64,000 nucleotides of DNA from Actinacidiphila sp. DG2A-62 (GTDB lineage Bacteria > Actinomycetota > Actinomycetes > Streptomycetales > Streptomycetaceae), in contig NZ_JAYMGI010000002.1 in NCBI RefSeq assembly GCF_035825295.1, forward strand, positions 992,001 to 1,056,000. The letters are read 5' to 3'. Every line of letters begins with the position of its first letter. The first letter of the stretch is position 1. The notes under the pieces were generated by a model, which worked only from the letters and a program-made list of their open reading frames with translations, made no database searches and had not been told where the DNA came from. Both the position numbers and the translations under genes were made by a program. Of this stretch, positions 21,841 through 55,388 are shown piece after piece.

Positions 21841-22425
21841 GTGGAGGAGCCGGACTGGGGAGATGCGGTGGCCGCACGCGAACCGTCGTGCGGGCCGGTG
21901 AGACTGGTCGCCGTCGACGGCCACGCCGGTTCCGGCAAGACCACCCTGGCCGGCAGCATCGCCGCGGCCCTGGGCGGCGCCCCCGTCGTGCACACCGACG
22001 ACCTGGCCACCCACGACGAGCCGTTCGCGTGGACCGGACGGCTCGCCGCCGAGGTGCTCGCCCCGTTCGCCGCCGGCCGCCCCGCCCGGCACCGCGTCTA
22101 CGACTGGACCGCGCGCGCGTTCCGCGGCACCCGCGAGATCGCGCCGGCGCCGGTCGTCCTGCTGGAGGGCGTCGGCTCCGGCCGCGCCGCCCTGCGCCCG
22201 CACCTCGCGCTGGTGCTGTGGCTGGAGGTCGACCCGTCCATCGCCCGCGCGCGCGGCCTGCGCCGCGACGGCCCGGGGCTCGCGCGCTTCTGGACCGGCT
22301 GGACCCGCGCCGAGGACGAGCACTTCGCCGCCGACCCCACCCGCCCGTACGCCGACCTGCTGGTCCACCAGACGCCGGACGGCTACCGCGCCGCGCCGGG
22401 GCCCTCCCGCGATCACCGAGGGTGA
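21841..22425 (+). CDS. P-loop nucleoside/uridine kinase-like ATPase
   Basis: The 194-residue protein carries a Walker A motif (VDGHAGSGKTTLAG, about residues 24-37). Next come the substrate-site acidic pair VVHTDDLATHDEPF and the arginine-rich lid region around RARGLRRDGPG. VVLLEGVGSG matches the uridine kinase/AAA pattern in this family. The phosphate acceptor is not determined. GTG 21841 starts the frame; the gap to the divergent peptidase gene is 136 bp. The C-terminus (GPSRDHRG) runs up to the candidate RNA region. Confidence 0.82.
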   Translation: MEEPDWGDAVAAREPSCGPVRLVAVDGHAGSGKTTLAGSIAAALGGAPVVHTDDLATHDEPFAWTGRLAAEVLAPFAAGRPARHRVYDWTARAFRGTREIAPAPVVLLEGVGSGRAALRPHLALVLWLEVDPSIARARGLRRDGPGLARFWTGWTRAEDEHFAADPTRPYADLLVHQTPDGYRAAPGPSRDHRG

Positions 22426-22519
22426 TCACTGAATATGCCCGGGTGACCACCCGCCGGACGGTCCGCGACGGCCGCGCACACCCGCCTGCGGCGTCGGGCG
22501 TAGGCCGCGCCATCACCGC

Positions 22520-22549
22520 TTGACCGCCTGGGTATGCAGCAATTACGTT
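22520..22549 (+). promoter_or_regulatory. Housekeeping-type promoter TTGACC-N18-TACGTT
   Basis: TTGACC (22520-22525) and TACGTT (22544-22549) are separated by 18 bp, an excellent match to the Streptomyces vegetative consensus. The expected start is the A at 22557, seven bases past the -10. That base is also the first base of a hairpin. Confidence 0.65.
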
Positions 22550-22556
22550 TTCAACT

Positions 22557-22621
22557 AGCGGTCTTGGACGACCGCTCGCAGAACGCGGAGCCCCCGGTTG
22601 TTCCCCCGTGACCGGGGGCTC
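22557..22621 (+). ncRNA. Candidate small RNA or attenuator with two hairpins
   Basis: Beginning at the predicted transcription start, AGCGGTC (22557-22563) pairs with GACCGCT (22570-22576) around a TTGGAC loop. After 11 nt, GAGCCCCCGGT (22588-22598) pairs perfectly with ACCGGGGGCTC (22611-22621) around a 12-nt loop containing CCCCC. The second stem would work as a terminator, giving an RNA of about 65-75 nt. It could instead attenuate the downstream AAA+ gene. It matches no RNA family I can name; the C-rich loop faintly recalls 6C RNA but the architecture differs. Confidence 0.4.
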
Positions 22622-22904
22622 TGCTCTGCCCCCAACCCGCTGCCGCCGCCCGTGATGTCCGATCCACGCCCGCGCGCGCTCACCGTGCGTGAGCACCCGG
22701 CGCTCGTCCGTCCCCGCGCCCGGCGCACGATGCGGACCACCGCGATCTTCGTCGCACCCTACGGCGCCGCGAACAACGCGGGTACGATGCGAAACGGGGT
22801 GGCGCAGCGCCTGGGGAACGCTGCTGCATGCCTCAACTCCCGCCCGGCCGTGCCGGGTTGGGCGAGGCGTCGGCGAGGCGGGGGACTGGTTAGGTGGGGA
22901 CTTG

Positions 22905-24800
22905 ATGGACTTCGGCACCGACCGCCCGGGCTCCCCGGCCGACTTGGCCTGGCTGCGCGGCGTCGACGCGTACACCGTCGGCGCGTACGCGCAAGCCGAG
23001 GAGGAGTTCAGGGCCGCGGTGCGGATGGACCCGGGCATGGCGGACGCCTGGCTGGGCCTGCACGCGCTGCGCGCCGACACCTCGACGGCGCTGCTGCAGA
23101 TGTACCGGCACCGCGAGCGCTTCGGCGAGCAGCGCGCCGGCCACCGCAGGACCCTCAACTCCTGGTACTGGCTGGGCTGGTGGGTGCAGCCCGTGCTGGA
23201 GACCAGCCGCGACCTGCTGCTCGCGCACGCCTCGCACTGGCTGGACGGCCGCCATGTCGCCGAGCTGGACCAGGCGTTGGCCGACTGCCCGCCGGTCGAC
23301 ACCGATCCGCAGGTCCGCTTCCTGCACGCCTGCCGGGCGTATCTGGTCAAGGACTGGGAGCACCTGGTGCGGCACACCGAGCCGCTGCTCGGCGACCCGG
23401 TCCTGGGCATCGAGGCGGGCCTGTTCGGCGGCATGGCCCGGGTCCGGCTGGAGATGTGCGGCCAGGCCGAACCGCTGCTCGCCGCCGCGCTGATGCGCTG
23501 CCGCAGCGAGCAGCCGCAGCGCAAGGAGCTGCGCTACTGGCTGGCCCGCGCCTACGAGGGCACCGGCCGCACCGCGGCCGCGGTGCCGCTGTACCGGGCG
23601 GTGCACCGGGTGGACCCGGCGTTCATGGACACCGCGGCCCGGCTGGCGGCGATCCACGAGTCCGACGACGGCCTGGACGAGGGCGCGGGCCTGGCCGCGG
23701 TGTCGCTGGCCGGCGCCGGCCAGTCCGTGCCCGAGGGCGGCGCCGACATGGAGGCCGCGCTGCTGGCCGACGCCCCCTCGGGCGGAACCGCGGCGGCCGA
23801 GCTGGACGACCCGCTGACCGCGCCGGGCCCGATCGAGGACCCGCTGCGGGACCGCTCGCAGAGCTCCTTCGGCGCGGCGGCGGCGCCCCAACTGCCGCTG
23901 GGCGGCGCCGATCCGGTGCTGCTCACCCAGGCGCTCGCCGAACTCGACCGGATGGTCGGCCTGGAGCCGGTCAAGCGCCAGGTGCGGGCGCTGTCCGCGC
24001 AGTTGCGGATGGCCGGGCTGCGCTCGGCGCAGGGCCTGCCGGTGCAGCCGCCCAAACGGCACTTCGTCTTCTCCGGCCCCTCGGGCACCGGCAAGACCAC
24101 CGTCGCGCGGATACTCGGCCGGGTCTTCTACGCGCTCGGGCTGCTCGGCGGCGACCACCTGGTGGAGGCCCAACGCTCCGATCTGGTCGGCGAGTTCCTC
24201 GGCCAGACCGCGGTGAAGGCCAACGAGCTGATCGACTCCGCGCTCGGCGGCGTGCTCTTCGTGGACGAGGCGTACGCGCTGTCCAACTCCGGTTACAGCA
24301 AGGGCGACGCGTACGGCGACGAGGCGCTGCAGGTGCTGCTGAAGCGGGCCGAGGACAACCGGGACCGGCTGGTGGTGATCCTGGCCGGCTACCCCGAGGG
24401 CATGGACCGGCTGCTGGCCGCCAACCCCGGGCTCAGCTCCCGCTTCACCACCCGCGTCGACTTCCCCAGCTACCGCCCGCTGGAGCTGACCCGGATAGGC
24501 GAGGTGCTGGCCGCGGAGAACGGCGACCACTGGGACGACGAGGCGCTGGACGAACTGCGCGCGATCAGCGGGCACGTGGTCGACCAGGGCTGGGTGGACG
24601 AGCTGGGCAACGGCCGGCTGCTGCGCACCCTGTACGAGAAGAGCTGCGCCTACCGCGACCTGCGGCTGTCGGAGTACCCGGCCACCCCCACCCGCGAGGA
24701 GCTGGCCACCCTGCGGCTGCCGGACCTGATGCAGGCCTACGGCGAGGTGCTGTCGGGCCGCGGCCCCGCGCTGCCGCCGCCCGAGCCCACCGCCGAATAA
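22905..24800 (+). CDS. EccA-like (CbxX/CfqX family) AAA+ ATPase with TPR-like N-terminus
   Basis: The 631-residue protein has an N-terminal helical TPR-type region (about 10-290), an acidic linker and a C-terminal AAA+ module. The module has Walker A GPSGTGKTTVAR (about 391-402), Walker B GGVLFVDEAYAL (about 448-459), KRAEDNRDRLVVILAGY (sensor 1) and a SSRF arginine-finger region. This is the layout of EccA, the cytosolic ATPase of mycobacterial type VII secretion. No other ESX component (EsxA/B, EccB-E, mycosin) is present here. ATG 22905 is the start. Its substrate is unknown; a chaperone or remodelling role is inferred. Confidence 0.88.
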   Translation: MDFGTDRPGSPADLAWLRGVDAYTVGAYAQAEEEFRAAVRMDPGMADAWLGLHALRADTSTALLQMYRHRERFGEQRAGHRRTLNSWYWLGWWVQPVLETSRDLLLAHASHWLDGRHVAELDQALADCPPVDTDPQVRFLHACRAYLVKDWEHLVRHTEPLLGDPVLGIEAGLFGGMARVRLEMCGQAEPLLAAALMRCRSEQPQRKELRYWLARAYEGTGRTAAAVPLYRAVHRVDPAFMDTAARLAAIHESDDGLDEGAGLAAVSLAGAGQSVPEGGADMEAALLADAPSGGTAAAELDDPLTAPGPIEDPLRDRSQSSFGAAAAPQLPLGGADPVLLTQALAELDRMVGLEPVKRQVRALSAQLRMAGLRSAQGLPVQPPKRHFVFSGPSGTGKTTVARILGRVFYALGLLGGDHLVEAQRSDLVGEFLGQTAVKANELIDSALGGVLFVDEAYALSNSGYSKGDAYGDEALQVLLKRAEDNRDRLVVILAGYPEGMDRLLAANPGLSSRFTTRVDFPSYRPLELTRIGEVLAAENGDHWDDEALDELRAISGHVVDQGWVDELGNGRLLRTLYEKSCAYRDLRLSEYPATPTREELATLRLPDLMQAYGEVLSGRGPALPPPEPTAE

Positions 24801-34163: not shown

Positions 34164-34300
34164 CGGGTCCTCCTGCCTCATCGGGCACGGACTCCGGGGC
34201 ATCGGGACTCAGCGGGGTTTCTCCGGGGGTTCTGGCGCCTGCGGTCCTCGCGCTTCGCGCGGTCCCGCCTGCGGCGGCGAACTCCTGAGTGAACGCCCGC

Positions 34301-34429
34301 CGCGCACTGCCTCCCATCCGGACTTTCACCGTCGGTCCAGGAATTTCACCTGGTCAACCGGCCGCTGGTTGCGGTCGGGTCGCGGACTGTAACCGCCGGT
34401 TCGGAATTTCACCGACCCCGGAGTGCGCG
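34301..34429 (-). promoter_or_regulatory. FMN riboswitch (RFN element)
   Basis: Read on the minus strand, the segment has the RFN core. GGTCGGTGAAATTCCGAACC and GGCGGTTACAGTCC are followed by CCAGGTGAAATTCCTGG and GACGGTGAAAGTCCGGATGG. The closing P1 stem is AGTGCGCG (34422-34429) with CGCGCACT (34301-34308). The ribD start is 138 nt downstream. The expression platform lies in that GC-rich interval. FMN binding would shut down ribD and the genes behind it. Confidence 0.96.
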
Positions 34430-34808
34430 AACGTCACTACTGACTTCAGTCTGCCACGCCCGCTCCCCCTGCTCCAGCCTCCGCCTGTGCACTGCCTCAC
34501 ACAGGGCACGTCCGAAGTAACGCGCGGCGACGGGTCCGGGCGCGCGGGCGGCGGGGAAACGGCAGGCGGGGCGGGCGGGCGGCGGCGACGCCGGGCCGGG
34601 ATCGGGAGGCTGCGGGCCGGGGTTGGGGACTGCGGCCCGGCCCGGCCCGGCCCGGCAGGCGGCGGCCCGCGCCGCCCGTCCCGGCAGGCGGCGGGACGGG
34701 CGGCGGGACGGGGTGCGAGGTCGGCCCGGCAGGCGGCGGGGCGGGCCGCGGGGTCGGCCGCGCGGGGCGGGGGCGGTCGGCCGCTCGCGCGGCCGGCGCG
34801 GGCGGGGG
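34430..34808. other. Intergenic region upstream of the FMN riboswitch
   Basis: The 379-bp gap separates the riboswitch from the end of the ROK gene. The first 80 bp must contain the rib promoter, but no strong consensus is visible. From 34560 to 34800 the sequence is nearly pure G/C with GGCCC runs and recurrent copies of CCCGGCAGGCGGC. Frames are open on several strands but I see no gene. Confidence 0.45.
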
Positions 34809-55136: not shown

Positions 55137-55388
55137 ATCGCTCCCTGGGGTTGCAGCGGCTGCTGGCTGAATCTTGGCTGACGGCACGGGGCTGCGCCCG
55201 GCACATCCCGGCAAGCTTATCGTCCGTGTCGCGCCGACGGGCGGCCATCTCGCACCTTGGATATGCGGTGACCTGTGTGACCTTGTCCCGGCGGCGCCCG
55301 GCGGCGACACGGAAGGGGAGCGGCACGGGGCGGGAGAGGGGCGGGAAGGGGCGAGAAGCGGAGCGGAGGGGAAGCGGAAGGCGAGCGT

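Follow-up and report, generated by a model that had tools for sequence, protein, structure and literature searches.

6C RNA is reported to bind several mRNAs through C-rich loops (Mai 2019). No Hfq is known in streptomycetes. The 6C RNA is defined by two stem-loops with at least six C residues in each (PMC8388888), and the mycobacterial 6C RNA is reported to interact with the panD and dnaB mRNAs (PMC8628891). Very few Streptomyces small RNAs (sRNAs) of known function have been characterized (PMC8388888). Among the sRNAs described by Moody et al. in 2013, which are named after their right-hand gene, scr1434/sar6912/svr1031 is common to three Streptomyces species; it was positive by northern blotting and highly expressed, with the highest levels in aerial hyphae and during sporulation, and scr1434 was reported to form a very stable stem-loop whose loop is C-rich (PMC3765725). 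Within the literature searched, scr1434, sar6912, and svr1031 are named only in that paper.

Here, we analyzed an intergenic locus in a 64,000-nucleotide stretch of DNA from Actinacidiphila sp. DG2A-62 (referred to as the window), in which a promoter, two hairpins, and a C-rich loop lie ahead of a gene for an EccA-like AAA+ ATPase. We present evidence that this locus probably specifies a stand-alone sRNA of the Streptomycetaceae that acts as a C-loop antisense RNA.

Results

A promoter with constant spacing precedes two predicted hairpins

The features of the locus are listed in Table 1. The TTGACC-N18-TACGTT promoter of the original prediction is present as described, and counting about 7 nt past the -10 box places the predicted start at 22556-22557, in agreement with the start at 22557 proposed there. 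The 7-bp and 11-bp hairpins, the latter with a CCCCC-containing loop, were likewise found where they had been placed, both in the sequence and by RNAfold, which folded positions 22553-22640 into two hairpins with a free energy of -51.1 kcal/mol (z = -6.4), with none of 200 shuffled sequences equally stable. The earlier claim that no protein gene uses this promoter within 340 bp also holds, as the next gene on the same strand, the AAA+ gene, begins 348 nt downstream of the predicted RNA start.

Table 1. Positions of the features discussed, numbered from the first nucleotide of the window
Feature	Position	Strand	Description	Basis
sRNA promoter	22520-22549	+	-35 TTGACC (22520-22525), 18-nt spacer, -10 TACGTT (22544-22549)	Sequence; homologue spacing; alignments
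Predicted small RNA	22557-22634	+	About 70-80 nt, both ends predicted	Inferred from promoter and terminal stem; scr1434 northern
Hairpin 1	22557-22576	+	7 bp, at the predicted RNA 5' end; arms AGCGGTC (22557-22563) and GACCGCT (22570-22576), loop TTGGAC	RNAfold; pair changes in the genus; support weaker than for hairpin 2
Hairpin 2	22585-22624	+	Long terminal stem, terminator-like, without U-run; perfect 11 bp GAGCCCCCGGT (22588-22598) and ACCGGGGGCTC (22611-22621), loop TGTTCCCCCGTG, extended by G-U and lower pairs	RNAfold; covariation in 82 loci
Loop of hairpin 2	22601-22608	+	Near-invariant TTCCCCCG within TGTTCCCCCGTG, proposed pairing seed	Loop conservation; predicted unpaired
Separate AAA+ -10 box	22781-22790	+	GGTACGATGC (TACGAT, 22783-22788)	Conserved in homologues
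Candidate loop-complementary block in AAA+ leader	22878-22889	+	GCGGGGGACTGG	Complementarity, G-run counts, permuted loops
EccA-like TPR/AAA+ ATPase gene	22905-24800	+	631 aa; downstream neighbor of the RNA	Pfam PF21545, PF00004, PF17866
FMN riboswitch	34300-34430	-	Ahead of ribD-ribE-pnuC-ribAB-ribH	98.1 bits
Streptomyces-metK RNA (RF03063)	55141-55253	-		72.4 bits

An E. coli-type promoter and terminator scan scored neither the sRNA promoter nor the terminator, because the -10 box is TACGTT rather than TATAAT and the stem lacks a U-run. TACGTT does fit TANNNT, the -10 motif given for 80.4% of S. coelicolor start sites (PMC4895711). In the homologues, TANNNT was present in 161 of 162 loci, in the forms TACGTT (138), TAAGTT (7), TAGGTT (7), TACTTT (5), TAGCTT (2), TACCTT (1), and TAATGT (1), and was separated from the -35 box by 18 nt (149 loci) or 17 nt (12 loci); locus L120, whose box is TTGCGT, was left out of the promoter count. 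Because TANNNT had been demanded by the scoring script in all rows and by the search pattern in 80 of them, it is the constant spacing, and not the motif itself, that constitutes the promoter finding.

The terminal stem covaries and its loop is near-invariant

The terminal stem was aligned from 82 loci of nine genera, comprising 43 distinct sequences. In this set, 94.0% of cells were paired, compared to 70.4% in shuffles, and both-side changes occurred in 15 of 17 pairs, with none of 500 shuffles reaching the observed values. The row choice used for alignment A2 (TTGACC, the CCCCCG motif, and the best stem) favors pairing and the C-run, not compensatory change. Sliding the partner strand by 1 to 3 columns abolished the pairing signal. 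Within the genus (33 sequences), both-side changes were present in 8 of 21 consensus pairs, and hairpin 1 of the same number of genus sequences displayed them in 4 of 5 consensus pairs. Across genera, the sequence of hairpin 1, located between the -10 box and the terminal stem, changes, with a mean z of -1.8 against simple shuffles and 77% of the sequences below -1. Compensatory changes in the two stems among orthologues had been proposed as a check on the original prediction; they are present, and the free-RNA reading withstood it. Separately, in diverged copies (e.g., L123, L126, L128, L131, L135, and L137) the hairpin 1 region contains GTTGA followed by GCAAC, for which an alternative GTTG/CAAC pairing is possible.

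The CCCCCG columns of alignment A2 are invariant partly through the choice of rows by that very motif; because of this, loop conservation was judged from loci found independently. All 30 genus loci retrieved by plain similarity searching carry TTCCCCCGTG, and all 15 diverged loci that were found by the covariance model R1 and retained for their AAA+ neighbor carry TTCCCCCG; at L174, a locus of another genus found via its promoter, the loop reads CTCCCCCG. In the RNA under study, the loop nucleotides are predicted to be unpaired with a probability of 0.82-1.0. Since the stem varies but stays paired and the loop is near-fixed, the stem appears to behave as a scaffold whose sequence is free to vary, and the loop as the element kept by selection.

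Distribution of the RNA

Of 35 genus genomes searched with a 151-base query, 34 contain the unit; the assembly lacking it is 71% complete. When 30 fetched genus loci were aligned, CTTGACC and TTACGTT were conserved, the first hairpin was variable, and the second was almost unchanged. We sampled 40 family genomes, 1 from this genus and 39 from genus g9, and 37 of them contained a pattern combining the -35 box, the -10 box, and the loop; none of 354 other genomes of the class did, and the backwards control gave 0 matches. The pattern is strict, so that the zero outside the family covers strict forms, diverged forms aside. At least one of the three family misses, genome G076, does harbor the RNA, with an altered -10 box (L120). 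The pattern also occurred in at least 120 stretches of named genomes, and the 80 listed comprise 77 from Streptomyces, 2 from Kitasatospora, and 1 titled "Streptosporangium nondiastaticum"; the last (L303) carries an RNA otherwise seen only in Streptomycetaceae, and its name may be wrong.

The covariance model R1 matched 278 of 297 family genomes at E <= 0.01, a figure unfit as an orthologue count: other GC-rich hairpins outside the family reach about 41 bits with this model, and one of its matches in the own genome is, by eye, the terminator behind an apparent tRNA. Because the R1 E-values mislead, the family survey rests on the promoter-loop pattern and the neighboring genes. The model also misses diverged true copies. 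Of the 22 genomes without a clear match, 21 gave an AAA+ match, which in G016 is no more than a 44%-identical paralogue; the upstream regions of 18 were inspected, and the RNA was present in 9 and not found within about 1.5 kb upstream of the AAA+ gene in the other 9. The remaining four comprise one genome without an AAA+ match, G016, and two in which the AAA+ gene is located at a contig end. In two small-genome Streptomyces (G112 and G237; loci L156 and L157), the kinase gene, which in the window precedes the RNA, lies almost directly against the AAA+ gene, and no RNA is present. As AAA+ genes are thus kept without the RNA, the latter appears dispensable in some lineages. Loci L177-L180, all of one genus, carry an enlarged form of the RNA with a longer transcript ahead of the loop.

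The original prediction had recognized no Rfam family, and a search of Rfam 15 bears this out: no family reached its cut-off for this RNA, the best sub-threshold match scoring 16 bits against a cut-off of 40.

Gene order points to scr1434

Reading from the AAA+ gene, the locus is followed by two CorC/CNNM-like genes, one unassigned gene, hisG, hisE, ribH, ribAB, a pnuC-like gene, ribE, ribD, and the FMN riboswitch. Romero et al. described an FMN riboswitch with SCO1443 as riboflavin synthase (PMC4681348). Counting nine genes back from ribE as SCO1443, and assuming colinearity with S. coelicolor, the AAA+ gene corresponds to SCO1434. Given that scr1434 takes its name from its right-hand gene, and that the RNA described here lies immediately to the left of the SCO1434 orthologue by this count, we infer that it is the orthologue of scr1434/sar6912/svr1031. 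The locus also has the stable stem-loop and C-rich loop described for scr1434, and both are conserved among Streptomyces.

The AAA+ gene is a constant neighbor, and its leader contains a loop-complementary block

The AAA+ protein has an EccA1-type N domain and scores under the NCBIfam cut-offs for EccA, SpoVK, and CbbX. Among 80 named loci chosen by the pattern alone, the AAA+ start could be placed in 74, and in every one of these the gene follows the RNA on the same strand; six were left out, four of which end 305-345 nt from the RNA and two of which are without a usable start. The same neighbor was found at every genus locus checked and at 15 diverged loci of other genera, for which the AAA+ neighbor was itself part of acceptance. 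In 5 of these 15 loci, the AAA+ gene is kept and no kinase match is found within the 3-kb locus.

The RNA loop is complementary to ACGGGGGAAC-type sequences, with up to 13 contiguous pairs when wobble is allowed. Approximately 15-27 nt ahead of the AAA+ start, the leader contains a block that reads GCGGGGGAACGA in several genus genomes and ACGGGGGCACGG in many Streptomyces, and a second G-run occupies the Shine-Dalgarno position; G-runs near start codons double as Shine-Dalgarno sequences. Two G-runs of at least four residues were found in 34 of 34 and 29 of 31 AAA+ leaders, compared to 11 of 267 and 7 of 261 background leaders, a comparison in which orthologous leaders are not independent samples and background G-runs are probably overstated, the background starts having been set by a crude gene caller according to Shine-Dalgarno strength and the AAA+ starts by homology. 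GGGGG occurs within 40 nt before the AAA+ start in 74 of 74 named loci, versus 8 of 68, 2 of 36, 2 of 36, and 0 of 2 for four neighboring genes. In this genus, none of 60 permuted loops separated AAA+ leaders from the background as well as the true loop; in Streptomyces, 2 of 60 did as well, and the true loop was better than the other 58.

In the own genome, the complementarity is moderate: the leader site pairs with the loop at -16.9 kcal/mol, with 6.7% of 267 background leaders as good, its complementarity score of 7.5 falls below the genus median of 10, and most of the site is base-paired in a predicted fold of the leader. In the genus as a whole, 16 of 34 AAA+ leaders beat every background leader; for the others, the background fraction extends to 0.25. 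The site in Streptomyces proper carries a mismatch to the loop, and its duplex energy stands out only moderately, with a median background fraction of approximately 0.06 (range, 0-0.18). Among eight genomes devoid of the RNA with leaders inspected by eye, one, G041, keeps both G-runs. Altogether, this conserved complementarity in the AAA+ initiation region, as read from sequence comparison, lends good support to a C-loop antisense RNA and moderate support to the AAA+ mRNA as its dedicated target.

A general C-loop sRNA with many G-rich targets, for which the AAA+ match would be incidental and the neighborhood a matter of synteny, differs from the C-loop antisense reading in the target step only, and we regard it as quite conceivable. 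Sampled background leaders also contain GGGGG, the complement of the loop CCCCC (31 of 267 and 29 of 261), and 6C RNA, reportedly a binder of multiple mRNAs through its C-rich loops, would be a precedent. Furthermore, the 13-nt loop complement CACGGGGGAACAA, found in 33 of 35 genus genomes, occurs once in 28 of them, at the RNA gene, and twice in five, so that no second conserved perfect site for this complement was detected among the 35 genomes. However, incidental pairing does not sit easily with an AAA+ leader that fits the true loop better than permuted loops, with G-runs far commoner there than at neighboring genes, or with an AAA+ gene that still adjoins the RNA in the five diverged loci lacking a kinase match.

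It is unlikely that the RNA binds RNA polymerase or another protein, in a 6S/Ms1-like or titrating role, instead of acting by antisense pairing. Its long stable stem and the high expression late in development reported for scr1434 (PMC3765725) would suit such a role, but the conserved part is the single-stranded C-rich loop, whereas the stem sequence varies. In addition, the part of the S. coelicolor RIP-seq study considered here concludes that polymerase association is confined to scr3559 and scr0792, a result that speaks against binding to polymerase.

The AAA+ gene appears to have its own promoter

Between the RNA and the AAA+ gene, GTAC[GC]AT was found in 80 of 81 distinct loci, and the longer form GGTAC[GC]ATGC in 74 of 81. 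The longer box is also present at L152, a locus without the RNA. Across loci, the loop and the AAA+ start are separated by 172 to 756 nt.

These features bear on the second option of the original prediction, namely, an attenuator or 5' leader, with transcripts initiated at 22557 that mostly end at hairpin 2 and otherwise read through into the AAA+ gene. The RNA and its constant AAA+ neighbor do share a strand, and the stem is terminator-like; nevertheless, the conserved -10 box between them, the variable distance, and the genomes that retain the AAA+ gene without the RNA make an attenuator very unlikely, and membership of the locus among AAA+ attenuators or riboswitches was rejected for these reasons. 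Nor does the consensus fold of the genus sequences show a competing pairing, and in the study that placed the S. coelicolor orthologue among the intergenic sRNAs, 12 others were reassigned to 5' untranslated regions (PMC3765725). The first option, a free RNA of about 70 nt, is the one that stood, in line with the conservation, the covariation, and, by gene order, the northern-positive scr1434. The conserved unit, the family-restricted pattern, and the covarying stem together indicate, at the level of sequence, that the locus is a free small RNA gene of about 70-80 nt.

That the locus is a mere conserved terminator or a peptide-coding stretch, as the terminator-like stem and a GTG in the loop might suggest, is highly improbable given that promoter spacing and loop are conserved along with the stem, that about 130 nt, including a separate promoter, lie between the end of the kinase gene and hairpin 1, and that the 3' arm of the stem and the bases after it are variable by inspection of the alignments, on which the peptide-coding reading was dropped.

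Discussion

We propose that a housekeeping-type promoter would drive synthesis of an RNA of about 70-80 nt ending in a long terminator-like stem, which would hold up an unpaired, near-invariant loop, UGUUCCCCCGUG. In the cell, this loop probably pairs with G-rich translation-initiation regions of mRNAs, like C-rich-loop sRNAs such as 6C, and the pairing would lower or otherwise change translation, with occlusion of initiation as our default guess. The likeliest dedicated target would be the mRNA of the downstream EccA-like AAA+ gene, made from its own promoter, although we put this target step forward only tentatively. By extension, RNA and AAA+ gene might form a dedicated pair throughout the family, in which the whole 12- to 13-nt loop matches the block in the neighboring leader and the RNA tunes the AAA+ ATPase in aerial growth and sporulation without Hfq; this, too, is a possibility that falls short of a firm expectation.

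The transcript itself would already be known as scr1434, if its identity by gene order is correct, with no target described in the section of PMC3765725 that deals with it. New here are the covariation-supported stem, the near-invariant loop, the family limits as sampled, the constant AAA+ partner, and the loop-complementary block in the AAA+ leader. The analysis thereby provides a fixed candidate seed for pairing and names one candidate target in which the site is defined. Should the proposed pairing prove true, a GC-rich bacterium would use contacts between G-runs and a C-loop for specific control despite the commonness of G-runs, and an uncharacterized AAA+ ATPase would be linked to development.

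Among known systems, the RNAIII-type C-loop antisense RNAs of Staphylococcus aureus resemble the RNA described here in targeting mRNAs via C-rich loops (PMC3765725); the host is a different one, and the likeness is one of mechanism only, by description. Another is scr5583 of Moody et al. (2013), a Streptomyces sRNA with a C-rich terminal loop that is highly expressed, late in development in two of three species; it belongs to another locus by its number, and its loop is 67% C (PMC3765725). With scr1434/sar6912/svr1031, our RNA shares the intergenic position, the right-hand gene (AAA+, by gene order), and the stable stem-loop with a C-rich loop; the likeness is drawn here from gene order and description, and the corresponding section of the paper gives no target, covariation, or family-wide survey (PMC3765725).

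In mechanism, the closest system is 6C RNA (RF01066), which is likewise an actinobacterial sRNA with hairpins and C-run loops. The two differ in that the present RNA usually has one loop of five C residues, the loop of hairpin 1 being TTGGAC, in place of the two C-rich loops of 6C; in that it occupies another locus; and in that it was not seen outside the Streptomycetaceae among 354 genomes of the class. Membership in the 6C family was rejected, as RF01066 gave no match in the window at its cut-off, in 22400-22950 up to E = 10, or in six related loci up to E = 5. The own genome contains a separate 6C-like RNA at C2:4782430-4782503 (L186, 1501-1574), which scores 43.6 bits, under the cut-off of 47. 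Among the enlarged forms of the present RNA, L179 and L180 contain a second GTTCCCCCG hairpin, which gives them a 6C-like layout.
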